From: Bacteroidales bacterium
GTDB lineage: Bacteria; Bacteroidota; Bacteroidia; Bacteroidales; Paludibacteraceae
Length of the DNA stretch: 64,000 nt
Assembly: GCA_022784645.1 (NCBI GenBank)
Contig: JALFZG010000062.1
Location: 1-64,000, forward strand
Direction: 5' to 3'
Shown: positions 6,821-35,784 of the stretch, in pieces
Layout: each line of letters starts with the position of its first letter
Numbering within the stretch: position 1 is the first letter of the stretch
Position numbers and translations under genes: made by a program
The notes under the pieces: model-generated
Database searches by the model: none
Seen by the model: the letters and a program-made list of their open reading frames with translations, nothing else
Told to the model about the DNA's origin: nothing

Positions 6821-8680
6821 TTAATAATTAGGATTTTGTACAAGTCCGGGGTTAACACCCAAAGCCGACTGCGGAAGCGGATACCATTCGTATTTGCGCG
6901 AACGCGCAGCGGGGAATGTCTCGCCCGAATCGTCTTTGGCGCGGCCGAAGAACCACCATTGTCCTTGTGTAAACTTATCGAAGCGACGGAGGTCCGTCCT
7001 GCGTCGGCGACCTTCGCTCAAGAACTCCAATCCCCACTGATGAAGCATCCATTCTTCATCGGTCCAACTTGCACCCACTTCATCCGTAGCCGCTCCAGAG
7101 AAATAGCGATTGCGAACTTCGTTGACAGCCGCACGAGGGCTCGTACCATCTATACGCATCTTGCATTCTGCCAACGTATAAACGACCTCAGCCCAACGGA
7201 ATTCAACCTCCGAAATAGACTGATAATCAATGCCCGTTTCCACCGGATACATGGGGTACTTCATTAAGCGGTAACCAGAGTTGGTTTGACCCCAACGCGG
7301 ACCTTCTACCACTTCTACCGGATGGGCTACATCGCTGCTGGTGCCACCAAACTGCCCCACCTGATCCACATATACCAGCGGTTGACCATCGCGGTCAGCA
7401 TCAGCAGGCACCGATTCGCCAGCTCGGTGATCCTTACCATCGGCCGCATCAGCAGCTGCCACGTCCGTGCGATACGTCATCGCACCTTTTAGGAAGATAC
7501 CACCATTCCATACGCCTCCCTCTGGGAATGCATAACTCTGCTTACGCATATCGCCATCTTCAAAACGAGCATATACCGCACCGAGTTTATCGCCATAGGG
7601 GGCACTCAAGAAGCAGCGTGGATCATCGGAATTATACGCCGTGCCGTCAGCATTCACCTGCGGCGAACCAGCCAAGTCCTTACCATTGTTATCATACGAA
7701 GGCGCCAAGCACACGCAATTCCAACCCGACTGATTGGTGGCATATACGTTGGTGATGTCCTTATAGGTATAAGGCAGACCGGGGCAGTTACGCATCCAGC
7801 CAGTATTGAGTTGACCATTGGCTTCTGCAAACGCAAACACTACCTCTGGGCAGTTTTCGTTACCTATTTGGAAAATCTCGCGGTAATCACTTACGATGCT
7901 ATATGTGCCATACGTGCCGTTGAGCAGTTCCTGGGCAAGTGCAGCGCACTCCTCATAGTGTTTTTCGCCAATGAACACCTCTGCATTGAGGAGCATGCGC
8001 ATTTTCAGCATACGGTTCATTGCAGGGTTCACGCGGTTAGCACCATTATTCTCAAGATTCGGAAGAGCAGCATCCAACTCGCTGCAGATGAAGTCATACA
8101 TGATCTTGCAACCCTCGTTAAAATCTTCAGAAACGGAGCCCGGCACATCGGTCGTAACCTCAATGTTCAGCGGCAAAGCACCGCCCCAGAGTTCATAATT
8201 ATTATAGTAAGCCCAAGCGCGAAGCGTTTGCACTTCGGCAATATAGGATTGTATTTTTTCTTGGGAAATGCCAATCTTCTCTGGATCAAGTTGCTCCAAG
8301 TCGTAAATGAGCTGATTGCAATACGCGATTGTCTCCCAAGCTACGCCCCATGCTTGATCCACAATCTTAGCTTCGGAAGTCCAGGTGTGAGAAGAAAGAA
8401 CGAATTTCAAACCTTCATCCCAACCCCATAATCCTGCGTTCCATGTGCGCCATGCTATTTGGTCAGCAGAGAACTCCTGCAAATAATAAAAGTATTCGCA
8501 GAAACCATACGCAGCACGACTGTAAATAGCCGCTACAGCACCACGTATGCTCGTTTCGTTTTGATAATAGACCGACGCATCGATGTTGGAGTAGTTTTTC
8601 TCCGTCAAGTCGCAGCCGGACATGGTCAGCAGCCCGAAGGCCATTGCCAATATATAAATAGTCTTTTTCATTGTTGTCAA
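6821..8680 (-). CDS. RagB/SusD family nutrient-binding outer-membrane lipoprotein
   Basis: Lipobox SGCD; SusD motifs (AWAYYNNYELWGGALPL, EFRWAEVVYTLAECKMR); adjacent to SusC. Confidence 0.92.
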   Translation of the reverse strand: MTTMKKTIYILAMAFGLLTMSGCDLTEKNYSNIDASVYYQNETSIRGAVAAIYSRAAYGFCEYFYYLQEFSADQIAWRTWNAGLWGWDEGLKFVLSSHTWTSEAKIVDQAWGVAWETIAYCNQLIYDLEQLDPEKIGISQEKIQSYIAEVQTLRAWAYYNNYELWGGALPLNIEVTTDVPGSVSEDFNEGCKIMYDFICSELDAALPNLENNGANRVNPAMNRMLKMRMLLNAEVFIGEKHYEECAALAQELLNGTYGTYSIVSDYREIFQIGNENCPEVVFAFAEANGQLNTGWMRNCPGLPYTYKDITNVYATNQSGWNCVCLAPSYDNNGKDLAGSPQVNADGTAYNSDDPRCFLSAPYGDKLGAVYARFEDGDMRKQSYAFPEGGVWNGGIFLKGAMTYRTDVAAADAADGKDHRAGESVPADADRDGQPLVYVDQVGQFGGTSSDVAHPVEVVEGPRWGQTNSGYRLMKYPMYPVETGIDYQSISEVEFRWAEVVYTLAECKMRIDGTSPRAAVNEVRNRYFSGAATDEVGASWTDEEWMLHQWGLEFLSEGRRRRTDLRRFDKFTQGQWWFFGRAKDDSGETFPAARSRKYEWYPLPQSALGVNPGLVQNPNY

Positions 8681-26510: not shown

Positions 26511-26870
26511 CGAAAAAAAAATGGATTACGCAAACAGTCAGGATTATTTTTTTCAAAAAATAACTTTTGGTCATTTTCGCAGGCTTGGAAAGACATGCAG
26601 ATAATGTCACACAAATACGGCTACAGAATAGATAAAATCGTCTAAAATCCTCGATTTCATCGGTATCATTAAAGATGCATGATAAGAAATAGCTACGTAA
26701 TAGATATATATGCAGCATCGAATCAGCAAAAAAAGGCGCAAGCAGCAATATGGTATAGCAGAAGAACGGCATTGACGCCTGCTATTTTTGTCAAAACTCA
26801 ATAAAAGTGTACGAATTATTAACTATTATAACAATAAACGTAAAAAAACGCTTTTTTTTTGCACAAATAT

Positions 26871-26901
26871 TTTGGTATATCAAAAAAAAGCAGTACCTTT
26901 G
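26871..26901 (+). promoter_or_regulatory. Canonical promoter TTTG-N19-TACCTTTG
   Basis: Exact match to Bacteroidetes consensus; starts the small RNA candidate at ~26907. Confidence 0.8.
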
Positions 26902-26906
26902 CATCG

Positions 26907-26978
26907 TCCTAATAAAGGACTGAATTAATAGTGTTAGTAGTAAGGAATATCCGTCGAGATGACGGGTATTCTTTTTTT
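26907..26978 (+). ncRNA. Candidate ~72-nt small RNA / leader (GTCCT-AATAA-AGGAC hairpin, linker, strong terminator)
   Basis: Promoter directly upstream, 11-bp terminator stem 26945-26971 with GAGAT loop plus T7; no ORF. Confidence 0.7.
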
Positions 26979-27056
26979 CATTCGATTCAAAATTGAAATA
27001 ACCTCTTTTTTCATGATATATCCCTCATTTTCACTATACAAACAATCAATCATCTT

Positions 27057-27998
27057 ATGAAAATCGGAATCTGCATTGGTTTGCGCCAAGAGCTTCTTCG
27101 CGGTGATATGGATTTAATAATGCAAGCCAAGAAGCAATGCGACTGCTGCATTGTAGCGTCTGAGCAAGAGCAGTTGCATCACCTGAAGAAACTACTCGGA
27201 TATGACCCTATTATACGATTCGTGTCGATAGCAGAGAATGCCAATTCTCTAACGGCTGCTTCCATTGCATTCATTGAGCAGACCGCCAAACAAATTTCAG
27301 AAGAGGCTACTTTAGTGTGGTACATACGGCCAGAATGGGTAAGTCTGCTGGAAGGAAAAACGGTGATTATCGGTGGTGAGGATATGACTCCGTTTAATAG
27401 AGTAGCGGAAAAACGAAGTTGTTGTCACCGCATATTGATTACGGGTTGGGCATCAGAAGGCAAAACAACGCTTGCCCGCGATCTTGCTACCTATTTCCAA
27501 ATTCCATATATTCCAGAAGCCGCACGCGTATATATGGAGGAACATAGGTTGAAAGACGAAGAACTTACCGAAGAAGATTTTTTGGCGTTTATCCGGTTGC
27601 AAAACGAGTTGACCGATGCCACTCACGATAGCGTAATAATATCAGATACCGATAATATCACAACCTTAGCCTATACTATTTCATATGCTAGCGACCCTAG
27701 CGTAAGGGCTATTTCTGCCGATTCAATCGAAAAAATCAAACGAGAAATGCAGATATATGATTGGAAGAAAATCTATGTACTGCCACCCAAGAATACGTAT
27801 GTGAATGATGGCTTGCGGTATATGAAGCAAGCCGATTTGGAGGTGCGTAACAAAAATTTCAACTTGCTGATTCAACTGATAGAGTCGTATGGATTCCGAG
27901 ATAAAATTACCTACCTAAGAGGTGATTTTTGGGAAAACTTCGTAAGTGTAAAGCAGGATATTCTGCAGCATTTGAGCAACAACGAAGCAAACTATTAA
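27057..27998 (+). CDS. NadR-like AAA ATPase / ribosylnicotinamide kinase-type protein with degenerate N-terminal nucleotidyltransferase domain
   Basis: ITGWASEGKTTLARDLATYFQIPYIPEAARVYMEEH P-loop kinase region; N-term MKIGICIGLRQELLRGDMDLIMQAKKQCD. Confidence 0.75.
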   Translation: MKIGICIGLRQELLRGDMDLIMQAKKQCDCCIVASEQEQLHHLKKLLGYDPIIRFVSIAENANSLTAASIAFIEQTAKQISEEATLVWYIRPEWVSLLEGKTVIIGGEDMTPFNRVAEKRSCCHRILITGWASEGKTTLARDLATYFQIPYIPEAARVYMEEHRLKDEELTEEDFLAFIRLQNELTDATHDSVIISDTDNITTLAYTISYASDPSVRAISADSIEKIKREMQIYDWKKIYVLPPKNTYVNDGLRYMKQADLEVRNKNFNLLIQLIESYGFRDKITYLRGDFWENFVSVKQDILQHLSNNEANY

Positions 27999-28024
27999 CT
28001 AATGCGAAATGCATGTTGCTTAGA

Positions 28025-29245
28025 TTATGGATGCAGCAGAAGGGAGGTAATATCGAGATCGCGATGGAATTTATTCATATCCACACGTCCTTTAATTCCG
28101 TTGATTCGTCCATGATCGGAGTATTGCCAAATAGAAGCATGCCCTTTTCCGTCAGTAACAGGAGCACGATCTTCTCGATAAAGTGCTAACATGAGCGTCT
28201 CCTGCCAAAAAGCGGAAGCCAACCACCTATTATAAAAAATCTGATAAGAATACAAAACGGGACGGTATCCGAATTTTGCCTCACAAGCATCCAAAAAAAT
28301 GCTTACTTGCCGCTGCAGTTGCTCTTTGCTCCACCCTGTATTGCGCTCCACATCAAGCATCGGACGCAAGTCCATTTCTTCTTCGCGGTAAAGCTTGCAA
28401 AACCAGCGAAACTGCTCCTCGGCTGAACATTTGGTCGTAAAGAAATGATATACACCCACTCGGATACCTGCTGCACGCGCTTTGCGGATATTCTCGCGAC
28501 ACCGATCATCTGCCAAAGAATTACCCTGGCTGATTTTAATATATGCATAGTGGATGCCGGAATCATATACTTTCTTCCAATCAATTTCGCCTTGCCAATG
28601 TGACACATCTATCATATCCGGCACCGAGTTGCTATCCTCAAAATAGCGGTGACGGGGATAATGCCTGCGAATATCATCCATCGATTTTTCTGCCATTCGG
28701 ATATGTGGGAAGCTGTCTTCTTTGGCCGTACGAACAGTATGGTATCGATTAAACTGCTCCGATAAAGGCTGATCATGAGGCATACATAGGGCTGGCGATT
28801 GCCCGAAGTAAGAGCGGCAACTATCTAGACACCGCTGCAAGCTATCCGTATGATACGATTCTGGGAGAACGAGCAGCGGAATCATATCGGCAGAATCGCT
28901 GATGGCAAACGTGCGCAATTGCTGGTATTGCTCGCTCACTGTCCGGTTGGAATCAAACATTGTCCAAAAACCCACTTTCAATCCACCTTGGCGCGCTTCA
29001 GAGATACACTCGTAATACATAGAATCCAGCACCGAAGAATCCTGCGGGGCCTCATACCAAATAATGTTAACTCCCAAACTGTCAGCCAGCGGTAGCCAAT
29101 CCCTATCATCTAAGGGCGATAAAACGGCATGTACCTCATCTGCTTTTACATTCGGAAAAACGGCCCCAGATAGTAAACATATAGCAAGCAGCAATTGGCG
29201 AATACGGGAGCTAAATTCATTAATTATTCTCGTTTTCATCGGCAA
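28025..29245 (-). CDS. GH25 family lysozyme-like protein with an additional N-terminal GH25-like region
   Basis: DMIDVSHWQGEIDWKKVYDSGIHYAYIKISQG..GVYHFF..DVERN; signal peptide. Confidence 0.85.
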   Translation of the reverse strand: MPMKTRIINEFSSRIRQLLLAICLLSGAVFPNVKADEVHAVLSPLDDRDWLPLADSLGVNIIWYEAPQDSSVLDSMYYECISEARQGGLKVGFWTMFDSNRTVSEQYQQLRTFAISDSADMIPLLVLPESYHTDSLQRCLDSCRSYFGQSPALCMPHDQPLSEQFNRYHTVRTAKEDSFPHIRMAEKSMDDIRRHYPRHRYFEDSNSVPDMIDVSHWQGEIDWKKVYDSGIHYAYIKISQGNSLADDRCRENIRKARAAGIRVGVYHFFTTKCSAEEQFRWFCKLYREEEMDLRPMLDVERNTGWSKEQLQRQVSIFLDACEAKFGYRPVLYSYQIFYNRWLASAFWQETLMLALYREDRAPVTDGKGHASIWQYSDHGRINGIKGRVDMNKFHRDLDITSLLLHP

Positions 29246-30218
29246 ATTTGATTAATAACTCGAGTGATTCGCAGGTAAAACGATGCGGAGCATCCAGCAT
29301 CTTGGTTTGGAGCTTAGCTTGCGGTTGCTTTTTTCGGATTACGGTAATGGCTTCTTCTACCGATGCTAAAGGAAAGAGCGGATCGCTGGCGCCATAAAGC
29401 AGCATAAAAGGACGGTCTGCAGCCCCAGCTGCAATCTCTGGATAATCGAGCGTATCGAGCATAGGCGTGTACATAGAGTAAGCACTGGGATTGGGCAATG
29501 GGCCACCGTGAGCTTCGAGGGTCGTCATCCAATTTGCGGCAAAGCACCAAGCAACAGCTTGCTCATAAGCTGCCAACATCCATGCGCGATAAGCTCCCAT
29601 AGAGAAACCTGCCGCTCCAATCTTATTCGGGTTCACTTCCTCTCTTGATTGCAACCAATGGAAAGCAACTTTATCATCGTGCAGAATCGTGCAGAACCAA
29701 TGCTGCCCTGTGGCATTTAGATGAGTCTGATAGAATGCAGGCTGCATGACTTTGAGCATCTTATTAAGTATTTTGAGCGAATCGAGCCCTACATGCATAT
29801 CGCCAACGGGTGCTCTACGGCTACCCCAATAGAGCGCATCGGGTACGAGCACTGCATAGCCATGCGCAGCAAGCGAATCGGCCACATACGCTCCTGCATA
29901 GCATTTATTCACCCAATAGTCGGCCTGCATCCATACAGACGAGTCAGCATCTTGTAGTGGCTTCACCATTTTCTCTTTGCCTATAGTGAACCACGCCCCA
30001 TGATCGTGCAGCAGAAGTACTGCCGAACAGCCTCCTTCCGGAACGGAGTCGGGCACCAACCAATAAGCGGCCATGCTATCGGTGGCAGATAAAGGAATAT
30101 ACACTTCGCTGACGCGATAACCATCGCGCTGCTCGTAATGCTCGATTTGTACTTGCTGTTGACTGCAAGACACGAGCAAAAATATACAAAAATTTACTAT
30201 AAATGTCTGCTTTTTCAT
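29220..30218 (-). CDS. Alpha/beta hydrolase (dienelactone hydrolase-like) lipoprotein
   Basis: Lipobox LVSC; GAAGFSMGAYRAW nucleophile elbow; start set at MKKQTF. Confidence 0.8.
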   Translation of the reverse strand: MKKQTFIVNFCIFLLVSCSQQQVQIEHYEQRDGYRVSEVYIPLSATDSMAAYWLVPDSVPEGGCSAVLLLHDHGAWFTIGKEKMVKPLQDADSSVWMQADYWVNKCYAGAYVADSLAAHGYAVLVPDALYWGSRRAPVGDMHVGLDSLKILNKMLKVMQPAFYQTHLNATGQHWFCTILHDDKVAFHWLQSREEVNPNKIGAAGFSMGAYRAWMLAAYEQAVAWCFAANWMTTLEAHGGPLPNPSAYSMYTPMLDTLDYPEIAAGAADRPFMLLYGASDPLFPLASVEEAITVIRKKQPQAKLQTKMLDAPHRFTCESLELLIKFADENENN

Positions 30219-30227
30219 TCCGGCTGC

Positions 30228-30258
30228 AAAGGTACAAAAAAAATCCGAAATATGCAAA
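30228..30258 (-). promoter_or_regulatory. Promoter TTTG-N19-TACCTTTG for the hydrolase gene
   Basis: CAAAGGTA 30228-30235 and CAAA 30255-30258 on plus strand; -33 box overlaps the upstream terminator T-run. Confidence 0.75.
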
Positions 30259-30327
30259 AAAAAAGAAAGGATGTCATCTCGACATCCCAATCTTTACTTA
30301 ACCTTAAATCTAATACCATGAAAAACA
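30256..30327 (-). ncRNA. Candidate ~72-nt small RNA, apparent relative of the one at 26907-26978
   Basis: Promoter TTTG-N20-TAATTTTG (30333-30364), CATCGTG start region, terminator GGATGTC-GAGAT-GACATCC + TTTCTTTTTTTTT. Confidence 0.7.
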
Positions 30328-30509
30328 CGATGCAAAATTACTGCTTTTCTGCAATACCACCAAATATTTTTCGGAAAAAAACATCAAAATACACTAATTT
30401 TCATCATTTTGCTATTTATAGATTGCAAAATACACCTGTTTTTACGTTTTTGGGTATAAAAACAAGATGTTTCAATATTGGCTGTAAATCCTCCAAAGGG
30501 CCAAATAAA

Positions 30510-31430
30510 TCACATTTCCAGACGCTGCTTCATCGCATCTGCATTGGCTCGAGAGACGGGGATTCGTTTGTCCGAACCAAATAAATCCAGCTCATACGTG
30601 CCGGCTGAGCGCACAGAAAGACTTCTGACAAAATTCAAATTCACAATAAACGCGCGATGGCATTGTACAAGACACTCCGTCTGCTGCAATTGTTCGCGCA
30701 ATTGCTTGAGCGTGATGCGCAAGGTTGCATGCAGTGTATTACCATCCTCAATATACGCAATATCGGCGTAATTGGACATACTCTCTATATAAATAATATC
30801 GTTAGGAACAACTTCCAGATATGCATTCTGTGAATTGCCTTGAATCGTGATGGGATGTCGTTGTTCTTCGGCTGTCGTTTCAGGAGCGGCATCTGCTATT
30901 TGCTGCTGACGCGCTTCGAGCAAGGCATTGATAGCACGCACATCTACCAATTCCTCCTGCAGACGGCTGGTGCGGAATCGATAGTATTGCCAAATCATGA
31001 TGAATACGCCGATAGTGGAAACCCAAAAGCACATCATAAAGAAGTAATAGAGCGTAAAATGGCCTTGTTCATTGAGCCACGCGTAAGTCAGCGGATAATG
31101 CTGATACCACATATTAAACGTGCAAAGCACAGCTGAAAGAAGTGGCGTAAAAATGGCATAGTGCACTATCATATTGAGGATAAACAACTTTGAGGTTTGG
31201 TTGTTCATCAGTTTGCGCCTAAGCGGGAAGAAGGACTGGATGAAATACACAATGAGTGTGCAGATAAACACACACAAGCCTTCGCCCAAAATAAAGAGCA
31301 TACGCCCCTCCACTTCGTCAATATTAAAGGGCTGAAACAAGGCAAGCACCACCACAGCAGCCACTGCAATATAGAATGAGTCTTTCACATTCGTGCCCCA
31401 ATTTTCTTTTCTCTGATTTATATCTTCCAT
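30510..31430 (-). CDS. Membrane-bound LytTR-family transcriptional regulator
   Basis: Four hydrophobic segments then LytTR domain (YIESMSNYADIAYIEDGNTLHATLRITLKQL..VQCHRAFIVNLNFV). Confidence 0.9.
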   Translation of the reverse strand: MEDINQRKENWGTNVKDSFYIAVAAVVVLALFQPFNIDEVEGRMLFILGEGLCVFICTLIVYFIQSFFPLRRKLMNNQTSKLFILNMIVHYAIFTPLLSAVLCTFNMWYQHYPLTYAWLNEQGHFTLYYFFMMCFWVSTIGVFIMIWQYYRFRTSRLQEELVDVRAINALLEARQQQIADAAPETTAEEQRHPITIQGNSQNAYLEVVPNDIIYIESMSNYADIAYIEDGNTLHATLRITLKQLREQLQQTECLVQCHRAFIVNLNFVRSLSVRSAGTYELDLFGSDKRIPVSRANADAMKQRLEM

Positions 31431-31607
31431 AATTGATAAATTTCAGTTTGCAAAAGTACTGCTTTTTTTTGGAATACGCAAGCAAAACAGCTGAAAATAT
31501 ACGCTTTGGGACGGATGGACAAGAATAGGGATAAACGGCATATTCAACCAACTGTCACTATACCCTACCATGTATCCCCAAGGCTTGCAGGAATAAAATA
31601 AAGGTTA

Positions 31608-31615
31608 TAATTTTG
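31608..31615 (+). promoter_or_regulatory. -7 element TAATTTTG
   Basis: Upstream of 31642 CDS. Confidence 0.5.
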
Positions 31616-31641
31616 CGGCGTCAAACAAAACGCGAAAGAAA

Positions 31642-33873
31642 ATGAAACACCTCAACACAACCGCAAAAATGGGAAACATCTTCTCCATTTTCGCCTCCAA
31701 TGCGCTCCTTGTTATCTTATTCTGTCTAATAAGCTATGGCGCACAAGCGCAAGAAATCGATAGTCTGCTACTCCGGCAGATGGATTCTATCCAACAGCTT
31801 TTTCAAATAGAGGAAATCACGGTAAAAGCGAGCCTTCCGAAAACGCGCATGAAAGGCGATGCTATCTGTACGCGCGTAGCTGGCAGCGTATTGGAGCAGG
31901 CAGGAACGGCAGAAGACGTGCTCTCTAAAGTGCCAGGAATCGTCGTCAAGCAAGGACAGATAGAGGTGCTCGGAAAGGGTACACCTATATATTATATTAA
32001 TGGACGCAAAGTGGAGGATCCGATCGAGTTGGAGCGCTTGCAAAGTACGGAGATCAAAGAAGTGGAAGTAATTCGTACGCCGGGAGCACAATATAATGCC
32101 GACGCAAATGCGATTGTAAAGATTCGTACCGTAAAACGCGAGGGCGAAGGTTGGGGCTTGCTTGCAAGTATCAACGATGCCTATTGTCCGCGCTATTCCA
32201 ACAATCAGTTAGGCGGACAAATCAACATCAATTATCGGTTCAAAAACCTCGATTTCATCGGAGGAATTGCAGCATCAGACCATCGGTTGAACCGCTTCGT
32301 AGCCAAGAACACGCAGGAGATGTATAATCCCGGAAAGGCATTTATTCAATCGGCAGAACAAGTGTATAAGCAGCACTTTACGAGCATGAATTACCATTTG
32401 GGAATCGATTGGCAAATCAGAGAGAACCACTCGGCGGGTGTCCGGATGGAGCGTCAAGACAACCTCATCGGACATTCGGATCTCTATTTGAGCGATACGG
32501 TGATGCTGAATGGACAAGCGAGCGACTTGCTTGAGAGCCGCAGCATCACGACGTCTGATGGCTTGAACAGTTGGCTCGCACAAGCTTACTACTCGGGCAA
32601 GATTCATCAGCTGGAGTTCAACCTCAATCTGGATTATTACCACACGCACCAGCGCGAGCAAGCGGTCACGGACGAGATCTCGACTGCAGACAACCGCAGC
32701 GTAGAGACCAGCAGCCGCGCAGATGGCAATATGTATGCGGGCAAACTCGTAATAGCCTACCCCTCCAAAATCAGCATCTTGCATGCGGGCGCAGAAGTAT
32801 CGCTGCTGATGCGGCATAATCAGTATCGCGCCATCGGCAGCCCCATTCCGGCCGATACCTCGCGCATACGCGATAATATATATGGTGTGTTTGCGGATTA
32901 TGGCTTCAATATTCCCAAAGCGGGTGTGCTGAACGTTGGTATTAGGTATGAATGTACGGATTTTCGTTCGCGCAGCCTGCAAAAGGAGGTAAAACGACTG
33001 ATGCACAACGTGTACCCCTCGGCTTCTTTCTGTACGCGCATCGGACAAGTGGAAAGCTCGCTTTCGTATGCCGTAAAAACGTATCGACCCAACTACAGGG
33101 CTCTGCGCAGCAGCATCGAATACACCAATCGCTATATGCTCACCAGCGGCAATCCAAACCTGAAGAACGAGATTAATCATCAGGCTGCCATCCAAGCCCG
33201 GTGGCGTTTTCTCTCGGGCGTGATGACTTATGAATACAAGAAAAACGGCATCTTCGATTGGGCCTTTTCGTATGATAACAACGACCAGATCATGATGTAT
33301 TGGGTGAATCTTGAGGAGCCCATCCATCGCTTGAGCGCCTTCATCAACGCCAGCCCCACCATCGGTGTATGGCACATGAACTACACCGTAGGCGTACAAA
33401 AGCAATGGCTGAAAATGGAGATGGAGGATTGCCGCGAATCAAATGGTAAACGGATTATTCGCTACAATAAACCGATGTGGATATTCAACGCGAACAACGC
33501 TTTCGTCTTCCCTACGCGCACAAAAAAGCACGGCCCTTGGGTGGTAGAAATCAATAGCGAACTCTTCTCTGCTGCACATTGGGGAAATGCCGAATTGATG
33601 GGGTGTAACTGGAACCTGAGCGTGGTGCTGCAGAAGACATGGTTGAAAAACGATGCCTTATCCGTAAGGCTGAAAGTAAACGATATCTTCCATACCGCCT
33701 ATCAGAAAGTCAAATTGGATATGGGAAATATCATCTTCACGCAAACTCCTATGCACGGCGAGCAGCGCTCGGTGTATGATCCGCAGACCATCAGCGTGAG
33801 CGTGCGCTACCGACTGAATTACATGAAGAAGGAGCATAACGGCGCCGGCAGAGAAACCAGAGGAAGACTGTGA
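31642..33873 (+). CDS. TonB-dependent receptor / outer-membrane beta-barrel protein
   Basis: Plug-like VLSKVPGIVVKQGQIEVLGKGTPIYYINGRKV, beta-barrel C-terminus. Confidence 0.88.
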   Translation: MKHLNTTAKMGNIFSIFASNALLVILFCLISYGAQAQEIDSLLLRQMDSIQQLFQIEEITVKASLPKTRMKGDAICTRVAGSVLEQAGTAEDVLSKVPGIVVKQGQIEVLGKGTPIYYINGRKVEDPIELERLQSTEIKEVEVIRTPGAQYNADANAIVKIRTVKREGEGWGLLASINDAYCPRYSNNQLGGQININYRFKNLDFIGGIAASDHRLNRFVAKNTQEMYNPGKAFIQSAEQVYKQHFTSMNYHLGIDWQIRENHSAGVRMERQDNLIGHSDLYLSDTVMLNGQASDLLESRSITTSDGLNSWLAQAYYSGKIHQLEFNLNLDYYHTHQREQAVTDEISTADNRSVETSSRADGNMYAGKLVIAYPSKISILHAGAEVSLLMRHNQYRAIGSPIPADTSRIRDNIYGVFADYGFNIPKAGVLNVGIRYECTDFRSRSLQKEVKRLMHNVYPSASFCTRIGQVESSLSYAVKTYRPNYRALRSSIEYTNRYMLTSGNPNLKNEINHQAAIQARWRFLSGVMTYEYKKNGIFDWAFSYDNNDQIMMYWVNLEEPIHRLSAFINASPTIGVWHMNYTVGVQKQWLKMEMEDCRESNGKRIIRYNKPMWIFNANNAFVFPTRTKKHGPWVVEINSELFSAAHWGNAELMGCNWNLSVVLQKTWLKNDALSVRLKVNDIFHTAYQKVKLDMGNIIFTQTPMHGEQRSVYDPQTISVSVRYRLNYMKKEHNGAGRETRGRL

Positions 33874-33902
33874 GGTGAAAGATGGAAACGATTACAACCC
33901 AC

Positions 33903-33941
33903 CATATACAACAATCCCGCAGCTTCACAGCTTGCGGGATT
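33903..33941. terminator. Long near-perfect hairpin, possible bidirectional terminator
   Basis: CAACAATCCCGC/GCGGGATTGTTG stem with inner AGCT/AGCT, no strong T-run. Confidence 0.5.
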
Positions 33942-34058
33942 GTTGCATGTACGATATGTACAAGTAGTTAGTAGTAATTTGTAGTAATGTCTTTCGACAA
34001 TTCTAATAGTGTGTAGTAGTAAAGAATCAGTAGTAGTAATATCTTATTTCTAAGACGC

Positions 34059-34067
34059 TGCAAAATT
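34059..34067 (-). promoter_or_regulatory. Orphan -7 element TAATTTTG pointing into the convergent intergenic region
   Basis: CTGCAAAATTACTGC on plus strand; no ORF downstream on minus. Confidence 0.45.
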
Positions 34068-34218
34068 ACTGCTTTTTCGCGAAGTATAAGTCCTATAGAA
34101 ACAATTCTTATTCTTTTTCGCGCAAATGGATGGCAGTTTGTTTTGGAATTTTATTATATTTTTTGCGAAATATAAACAGATTTCTTGTAAAAACGTAAAT
34201 AGATTGTGGAAATATGTT

Positions 34219-34256
34219 AAAAAACCGCCCAATCGGGATGATTCGGCGGTTTTTGA
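34219..34256 (-). terminator. Intrinsic terminator of acetyl-CoA hydrolase/transferase gene
   Basis: AAAACCGCC/GGCGGTTTT stem plus T-run on minus. Confidence 0.8.
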
Positions 34257-34278
34257 TATTTTTTTGTGCAAAAAGAAA

Positions 34279-35784
34279 TCAACGCTTATAATTTTCCCAT
34301 TTGGTGTTGCGCATGTCGCCTGATTTGAGGAATTCCTCGTGCATAGCCAATGCGCAAGAGAGGGTGTGAGGCGTATGAGCGGTCTTACTCATTTCGAGAT
34401 ACTCGCGCAGCATCGGACGATACTCGGGATCTACGCAATTGTCGATAATCTCGTGAGCGCGCTGAATCGGGCTCTTGCCGCGGAGGTCAGCGATACCATG
34501 CTCGGTGATGATCACCTTAACAGAGTGCTCAGAGTGATCCAAGTGAGAAACCATTGGAACGAAAGCGGAGATGGCGCCACCCTTAGCGGTAGAAGGCGTG
34601 GTGTAAATAGAGATATAGGCATTGCGCGTAAAGTCGCCGCTACCACCGATACCATTCATCATCTTCGTGCCGCAAACATGGGTCGAGTTGATGTTGCCGA
34701 AAATATCAGCCTCAAGGGCAGTATTGATGGTGATTAAGCCCATACGACGAGCAAGCTCAGGGTTGTTGGAGATTTCCTGCGGACGAAGCACAATTTTATC
34801 TTTGAAGAAATCCATATGGTCGATGATATCCTGAAGCTTATCCGAACCGATGGTGAGCGAGCAACCGGAAGCAAACTTGATGCGGCCCTCTTTCATCAGT
34901 CCGATAACGGAATCCTGAATCACCTCGGTGTACATCTCAAAAGCAGGGATATGCTTATTCTCGCCGAGTGCACCCAAAACGGCATTGGCTACATTACCCA
35001 CACCAGACTGAATAGGCAGGAAAGAAGCCGGAATACGACCTTCTTTCATCTCGTTCTCTAGGAAAGCAGCTACGTTAGCGCCAATCTTAGCCGTAGTCTC
35101 ATCGAGCGGAGTAAACTTACCAACCTCATTGGGGCGATTCGTGCGCACAACAGCCACCAACTTCTCAGCGGGGATGGTCACACAATCAGAGCCAATGCGG
35201 TCAGAGGGCTTATATACGGGGATCTCGCGACGCTGTGGCGGGTCAGCAGGCTCGTAGATATCGTGCATGCCACGCATCGAAGCGGGCATAGCCTCGTTGA
35301 GCTCTACGATGACCTTATCAGCCAAACGGCAGAACGTAGGTACATTACCTACACCTGCGGTTAATACAATCTCCACTTTGCCGTCTTTCTCTACGAGGTC
35401 GCATGCCTCAACAATAGCAAAATCAGGCTTGGGAAGGAACCCGTAACGCAAGTCTTGCGCCAATTCAGAGAGGTGCATGTCGAAGTAATGTGCGCCTTGG
35501 GCATTGAGCTCCGTACGGAGGTCTTTATTGCCCTGATATGGCGTACGGAATGCGATAGCATGTGCGCGAGCCAATGCACCATCGCACGAGTCACCGGTAG
35601 AAGCGCCAGTGTACACACCAATCTTAAAAGGTTTGCCTTCAGCGTGGAGTGCTTCGGCCTTGTGAGCAATAGCAGTAGGAACATCTTTAGGAGCACCTGC
35701 CGGAGTAAAACCACCCATGCCGCAGATTGCACCGTCGAAAACCAATGCGGCAGCCTCATCGGCTGTCATAAATGGAAATGCCAT
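34279..35784 (-). CDS. Acetyl-CoA hydrolase/transferase family (succinate/acetate CoA-transferase-like)
   Basis: GMGGFTPAGAPKDVPTAIA, IQSGVGNVANAVLGAL, GIGGSGDFTRNAYISIY, ITEHGIADLRGKSP. Confidence 0.92.
   Translation of the reverse strand: MAFPFMTADEAAALVFDGAICGMGGFTPAGAPKDVPTAIAHKAEALHAEGKPFKIGVYTGASTGDSCDGALARAHAIAFRTPYQGNKDLRTELNAQGAHYFDMHLSELAQDLRYGFLPKPDFAIVEACDLVEKDGKVEIVLTAGVGNVPTFCRLADKVIVELNEAMPASMRGMHDIYEPADPPQRREIPVYKPSDRIGSDCVTIPAEKLVAVVRTNRPNEVGKFTPLDETTAKIGANVAAFLENEMKEGRIPASFLPIQSGVGNVANAVLGALGENKHIPAFEMYTEVIQDSVIGLMKEGRIKFASGCSLTIGSDKLQDIIDHMDFFKDKIVLRPQEISNNPELARRMGLITINTALEADIFGNINSTHVCGTKMMNGIGGSGDFTRNAYISIYTTPSTAKGGAISAFVPMVSHLDHSEHSVKVIITEHGIADLRGKSPIQRAHEIIDNCVDPEYRPMLREYLEMSKTAHTPHTLSCALAMHEEFLKSGDMRNTKWENYKR

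Follow-up and report, generated by a model that had tools for sequence, protein, structure and literature searches.

In Caulobacter crescentus the sponge CrfA counters the sibling sRNAs SisA-D (PMC12559287); it is encoded separately and matches the conserved core that these sRNAs share, and the unit described here, which we term the ACU RNA, would relate to its partner family in the same way. CrfA, however, pairs by way of a single G/A-rich stem-loop and works with Hfq, whereas the ACU RNAs are a set of several paralogs with unpaired multi-site linkers in Bacteroidales (PMC12559287). QrrX of Vibrio cholerae likewise targets the conserved pairing region of its siblings Qrr1-4 under its own transcriptional control, but differs from the ACU RNAs in being a single, Hfq-linked gene without a repeat array (PMC9732341). 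RosA of Bacillus subtilis, which binds at least two sRNAs (RoxS and FsrA) in a setting that has no known RNA hub protein, would resemble them in this, and differs in its unrelated sequence and in that RoxS and FsrA are separate sRNAs whose sibling status is not established here (PMC8216469). These three were discovered by experiment, two of them in Hfq-dependent Proteobacteria (PMC12559287, PMC9732341, PMC8216469), and in the open-licence literature we found no sponge of such kind in Bacteroides or relatives. The Bacteroides sRNA FopS (RF04319, PMC11697453) is similar to the partners of the ACU RNA, here termed AGU sRNAs, in promoter style, short length, single-stranded 5' seed region and terminator; yet it has another seed, neither AGU1 nor the ACU RNA matches RF04319 at E up to 1, and the word 'sponge' is absent from the FopS paper (PMC11697453). 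On balance we favor the view that this genome, from an uncultured Bacteroidales bacterium, encodes three paralogous sponges of its AGU sRNA family, the ACU RNA among them.

The ACU unit and its paralogs

Within the window, i.e. the whole 64,000-nucleotide stretch that was analyzed, the unit has the following parts:

33904..34056, minus strand: ACU RNA (sponge candidate), ~152 nt; match to covariance model R1 at 33904-34068 with 114.6 bits
34061..34068, minus strand: -7 box TAATTTTG of the ACU RNA, fitting the TAnnTTTG consensus
34090..34095, minus strand: TAGGAC element of the ACU promoter, 21 nt ahead of the -7 box
34041..34056, minus strand: 5' hairpin GUCUUAGAAAUAAGAU of the ACU RNA, from fold prediction
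33967..34040, minus strand: unpaired ACU-repeat linker, holding a two-half site and an 11-nt site
~33906..33946, minus strand: GC-rich terminator-like hairpin of the ACU RNA, without a long U run

The original prediction had placed an orphan promoter in a convergent intergenic region, and the unit does lie, with its -7 box, between the ends of two convergent genes, for an outer-membrane β-barrel (31642-33873, plus strand) and an acetyl-CoA hydrolase/transferase (34279-35784, minus strand). The box itself was correctly recognized on the minus strand but sits at 34068-34061, not at 34059-34067, and the long hairpin, also present, spans ~33906-33946 instead of 33903-33941. TAnnTTTG is the sigma-ABfr promoter consensus of Bacteroides (PMC7366714), and the 5' end at 34056 was set by analogy with FopS, from the distance between its -7 box and its model start. 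Transcription leftward from TAATTTTG would yield a noncoding RNA of ~152 nt ending at the hairpin near 33906. This hairpin, with a predicted energy of -28.6 kcal/mol (z -6.85), could act for either of the two converging transcripts. The linker between the 5' hairpin and the GC hairpin has five ACUACU, together with the two-half site CTACTACACACTATTA (34004-34019, minus strand) and TTACTACTAAC (33967-33977, minus strand). A protein-coding reading of the unit was rejected, with none of the three frames open and single-base gaps between species. DonS-type cis-antisense RNAs are divergent to, and overlap, a susC-like gene (PMC7366714), and this reading was set aside too, the ACU unit lying between 33873 and 34279, past the 3' end of the β-barrel gene.

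A BLAST comparison of the intergenic region with its own genome (G000) recovered two extra copies, 82-84% identical to it from the promoter through the 5' hairpin into the first repeats, making the unit one of three paralogous intergenic units. Their alignment shows one order of parts shared by the three copies, whose intergenic locations are unrelated: the copy on contig C46 is flanked by an 818-aa open frame with no match in Pfam and by a β-helix gene, and that on C48 lies near a gene for a PIF1-like helicase. R1, built from these three copies and run over 178 genomes of the genus, gave clear matches only in G000, its sister species G163 (three) and the more distant species G063 (contig C90). 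The three G163 copies are orthologs, while G063 has three related ACU RNAs (i, ii, iii), one of which follows an acetyl-CoA hydrolase gene, as in the window. Weak R1 matches in G044, G104, G113 and G121 were discarded, those loci showing the promoter part alone. A longer ACU pattern had no match in the genome-contig or viral-contig collections, and a scan of the viral contigs with a 14-nt core was non-specific and was dropped. Rfam searches at E up to 1 gave no match for the ACU RNA (within 26800-34400), AGU1, the C46 and C48 copies, the second AGU sRNA (AGU2) or the thioredoxin leader considered below; matches within 26800-34400 were a FopS copy at 30255-30328 and otherwise chance matches elsewhere. 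This FopS sRNA (RF04319, 78.9 bits, minus strand) is situated between AGU1 and the ACU RNA, and four more copies occur elsewhere in the genome.

By hand count in the alignment, the window ACU RNA differs from its G163 ortholog by two substitutions and two single-base gaps in ~152 nt, and the surrounding 9 kb is 87.5% identical to G163 (BLAST). Upstream of the promoter, ~110 nt of noncoding sequence (34069-34180) is also nearly identical in the sister species, a stretch longer than one promoter element would require. In two of the G063 copies (L271:2300-2486 and 7050-7281) a 5' element (GUCUUAAG or GUCUUAC) is complementary to a distant one (CUUAAGAC or GUAAGAC), and their pairing would make the ACU array one large loop; the stem letters differ between the two copies with complementarity kept, and the predicted fold has the stem in the first copy alone.

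In each of the six ACU promoters of G000 and G163, TAGGAC precedes the -7 box by exactly 21 nt. Its place is taken by GAGAC in G063 i and ii, while iii has neither, and a second copy lies 22 nt further upstream in three cases (GAGAC in G063 i and ii, TAGGAC at C46). No further instance was found in ~315 kb sampled, nor at the AGU or FopS loci read. This element of fixed spacing suggests a dedicated regulator or sigma factor for the ACU RNAs. Given its presence on ACU promoters and not on the AGU and FopS loci read, the sponge would probably be made under a condition of its own, whereupon AGU-controlled genes would be freed.

The AGU sRNAs and their complementarity to the ACU RNAs

The partner encoded in the window has these features:

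26906..26978, plus strand: AGU1 sRNA (the 'first sRNA'), matched by models R2/R3; 5' hairpin, linker and terminator with U run
26894..26901, plus strand: -7 box TACCTTTG of AGU1, read from the sequence
26929..26940, plus strand: seed TAGTGTTAGTAG of AGU1, invariant across nine copies

AGU1, predicted to fold at -24.5 kcal/mol (z -4.90), belongs to a family of sRNAs of 70-80 nt with a second copy, AGU2, on contig C6 of the same genome. An alignment of nine promoter-bearing copies (AGU1 and AGU2, both G163 orthologs and five, a to e, from G063) shows a 12-nt seed, UAGUGUUAGUAG, identical in all, with variation in the remaining linker sequence, the 5' hairpins and the terminators. Despite these differences most 5' sequences are predicted to form a short hairpin, an exception being that of G063 b; pair counts for the terminator stem are weak, probably since MAFFT leaves the stems unaligned. 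AGU1 differs from its G163 ortholog only in the hairpin loop. Matches to R2 below ~43 bits in other genomes of the genus proved to be FopS sRNAs at 27 of 27 loci read, their promoter and terminator resembling those of AGU and their 5' sequence being different.

Promoter-bearing AGU sRNAs are found, among the 178 genomes, only in G000, G163 and G063, the same three that have ACU RNAs, which represents fewer than three independent events given the close kinship of G000 and its sister species G163; completeness of the genomes is 88-99%, G163 is a MAG and covariance-model E-values are rough. Across 358 genomes from 33 genera of the family the AGU sRNAs were again confined to these three, apart from one copy in a 3'-UTR position in the 76%-complete genome G115. 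In G063 (L275:1489-1577) and G115 (L307:1501-1567) the seed occurs directly ahead of a terminator, apparently within a 3' UTR and with no promoter of its own, and these are possible 3'-UTR-derived siblings.

The link between the two RNAs had been proposed from a plus-strand match, TAATAGTGTGTAGTAGTAAAGAAT, to the AGU1 linker TAATAGTGTTAGTAGTAAGGAAT. The linker lies exactly where indicated (26926-26948), as does the shorter match GTTAGTAGTAA (33967-33977), while the sequence of the longer match holds and its position is 34004-34027 in place of 34003-34026. That such sequence might be common low complexity in this genome was an objection raised at the outset, and the counts speak against it: TTAGTAGTAA has five occurrences genome-wide (2.29 Mb), fewer than the 11 of the reversed control. 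In the window TAGTAGTA is present five times versus 0.86 expected, four of the five lying inside the ACU RNA and AGU1 loci. The pattern CTACTN{0,5}CACTATTA has 12 matches in the three whole genomes, all at AGU-family or ACU loci. The spacer between its halves is exactly AA in promoter-bearing AGU copies and 1, 3 or 4 nt in the ACU RNAs, and AGU-ACU pairing would therefore be broken in the middle. That ACU sites always carry this bulge is only suggestive, since nine independent two-half sites would all avoid the perfect 2-nt spacer about 1/4 of the time by chance if spacers of 0-6 were equiprobable.

At best, an AGU linker aligned to the reverse complement of the window ACU RNA with a score of 39, reached by none of 300 dinucleotide shuffles (maximum 31). 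When the ACU linkers were dinucleotide-shuffled 500 times, no shuffle reached the scores of AGU1, AGU2, G063 a or G063 c, and each of these four had its top score with ACU RNAs of its own genome (G163 counted with G000); G063 a, for instance, aligns with its own ACU iii over 28 columns that contain a single mismatch and a one-base gap. Of the five promoter-bearing sRNAs in G063, the other three (b, d and e) matched ACU RNAs no better than shuffles did; complementarity to the conserved pairing region of the sRNA, as expected of a sponge, is hence seen for AGU1, AGU2 and G063 a and c, and not for b, d and e. Among the ACU RNAs the C48 copy is weak, its score being reached by 11 of 300 shuffles and its duplex energy by 27 of 200. 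Full-length RNAduplex was uninformative for most pairs, dominated by the GC-rich terminators, and linkers alone and cofolding were used instead. Cofolding with the ACU RNAs left the hairpins in place and joined the linkers alone, at a net -17.9 kcal/mol for AGU1 and the window ACU RNA. A putative promoter and a terminator-like hairpin, both conserved in sequence, would make the ACU unit a separate transcript with its own 3' end, as a sponge is expected to be.

A chance promoter-like box beside a functionless repeat is extremely improbable to us: the -7 motif is indeed common in the genome, and most BLAST matches in the genus span that part alone, but the paralogs lie in unlinked intergenic regions, the unit is conserved relative to the sister species, it co-occurs with a partner family and its complementarity withstands the shuffle tests. 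It is very unlikely that the ACU repeats are instead primarily a platform for an RNA-binding protein (for example of the RRM type, like RbpB), acting as a protein sponge with AGU complementarity secondary. Short, repeated, unpaired motifs would suit such a protein, and RbpB of B. thetaiotaomicron binds mainly single-stranded sRNA regions (PMC11697453). Yet the match to the AGU linker runs past the ACU repeat into genome-specific flanks, and the top-enriched sRNA motif of RbpB is the FopS sequence, not the ACU repeat (PMC11697453).

The proposal of a sponge or decoy with several binding sites is thus strengthened by the non-low-complexity of the sites, by conservation, by co-occurrence and by a predicted duplex that spares the hairpins of both RNAs. 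The co-conservation that the original prediction suggested checking holds as well, with both RNAs kept in the sister species and the two families co-occurring. New with respect to that prediction are the three ACU paralogs, a partner family with an invariant seed and a thioredoxin leader as putative further partner.

Leaders with matching sites and the proposed role of the ACU RNAs

On contig C59 a thioredoxin gene has a leader with a 24-nt complement to AGU1 that includes one G-U pair, a pairing that reaches the 5' arm of the AGU1 terminator. Adjoining it is an AGU2 site whose flanks also match and which has a 2-nt bulge, and both sites are kept in G163 with one extra G-U pair at that for AGU2. 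The mRNA could be subject to regulation here, or the leader could itself act as a sponge. A terminator-like hairpin with a U run (L074:2788-2894) follows the sRNA sites and precedes the start codon, so attenuation may control the thioredoxin gene.

The mRNA leader of a small lipoprotein on contig C22 (L076:2420-2620) has four successive hairpins, each with UAGUAA in its loop, and AGTAGTAGTT directly ahead of the ATG. It is a possible further ACU partner, or else a protein-binding array. These exposed loops, and AGTAGTAGTT beside the start codon, would also fit reversed roles, in which ACU RNAs are trans-acting regulators of AGU-bearing leaders and the AGU RNAs are their decoys or the terminated leaders of the genes that follow. 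Downstream of AGU1, and likewise of AGU2, is a gene on the same strand, separated from the sRNA by a terminator, and the promoter and 5' hairpin of the ACU RNA show good conservation, as such a reading would have it. We nevertheless hold it to be unlikely: the invariant 12-nt block belongs to AGU while the ACU sites vary in spacing, a pattern expected if the AGU seed is used on many targets; the AGU layout is compact and FopS-like, as in sRNAs; and one G063 AGU copy is head-on to its adjoining genes.

Under the sponge reading that we favor, the bulged and shorter sites of the ACU linker would base-pair in the cell with the exposed seed UAGUGUUAGUAG of AGU1 and AGU2, and this pairing would withhold the two putative regulators from their targets, one of which is perhaps the thioredoxin gene with long sites in its leader. 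We regard as quite doubtful its elaboration into a three-layer competing-RNA network of sibling sRNAs, bulged multi-site sponges and a leader whose uninterrupted pairing with AGU1 leads to cleavage or attenuation. The sponge sites would there have the central bulge that is likewise seen in plant target mimicry, letting the sponge survive.

The ACU RNAs would act most nearly as CrfA and QrrX do, and would be set apart from these by having several paralogs in each genome, each with several sites, and a Bacteroidales host. If true, this would be a sponge family readable from sequence and matched to an sRNA family, extending competing-RNA control to Bacteroidales as well. With its restriction to a few species of one genus and its best fit to sRNAs of the same genome, it would offer a natural system for studying the coevolution of sponges and sibling sRNAs.
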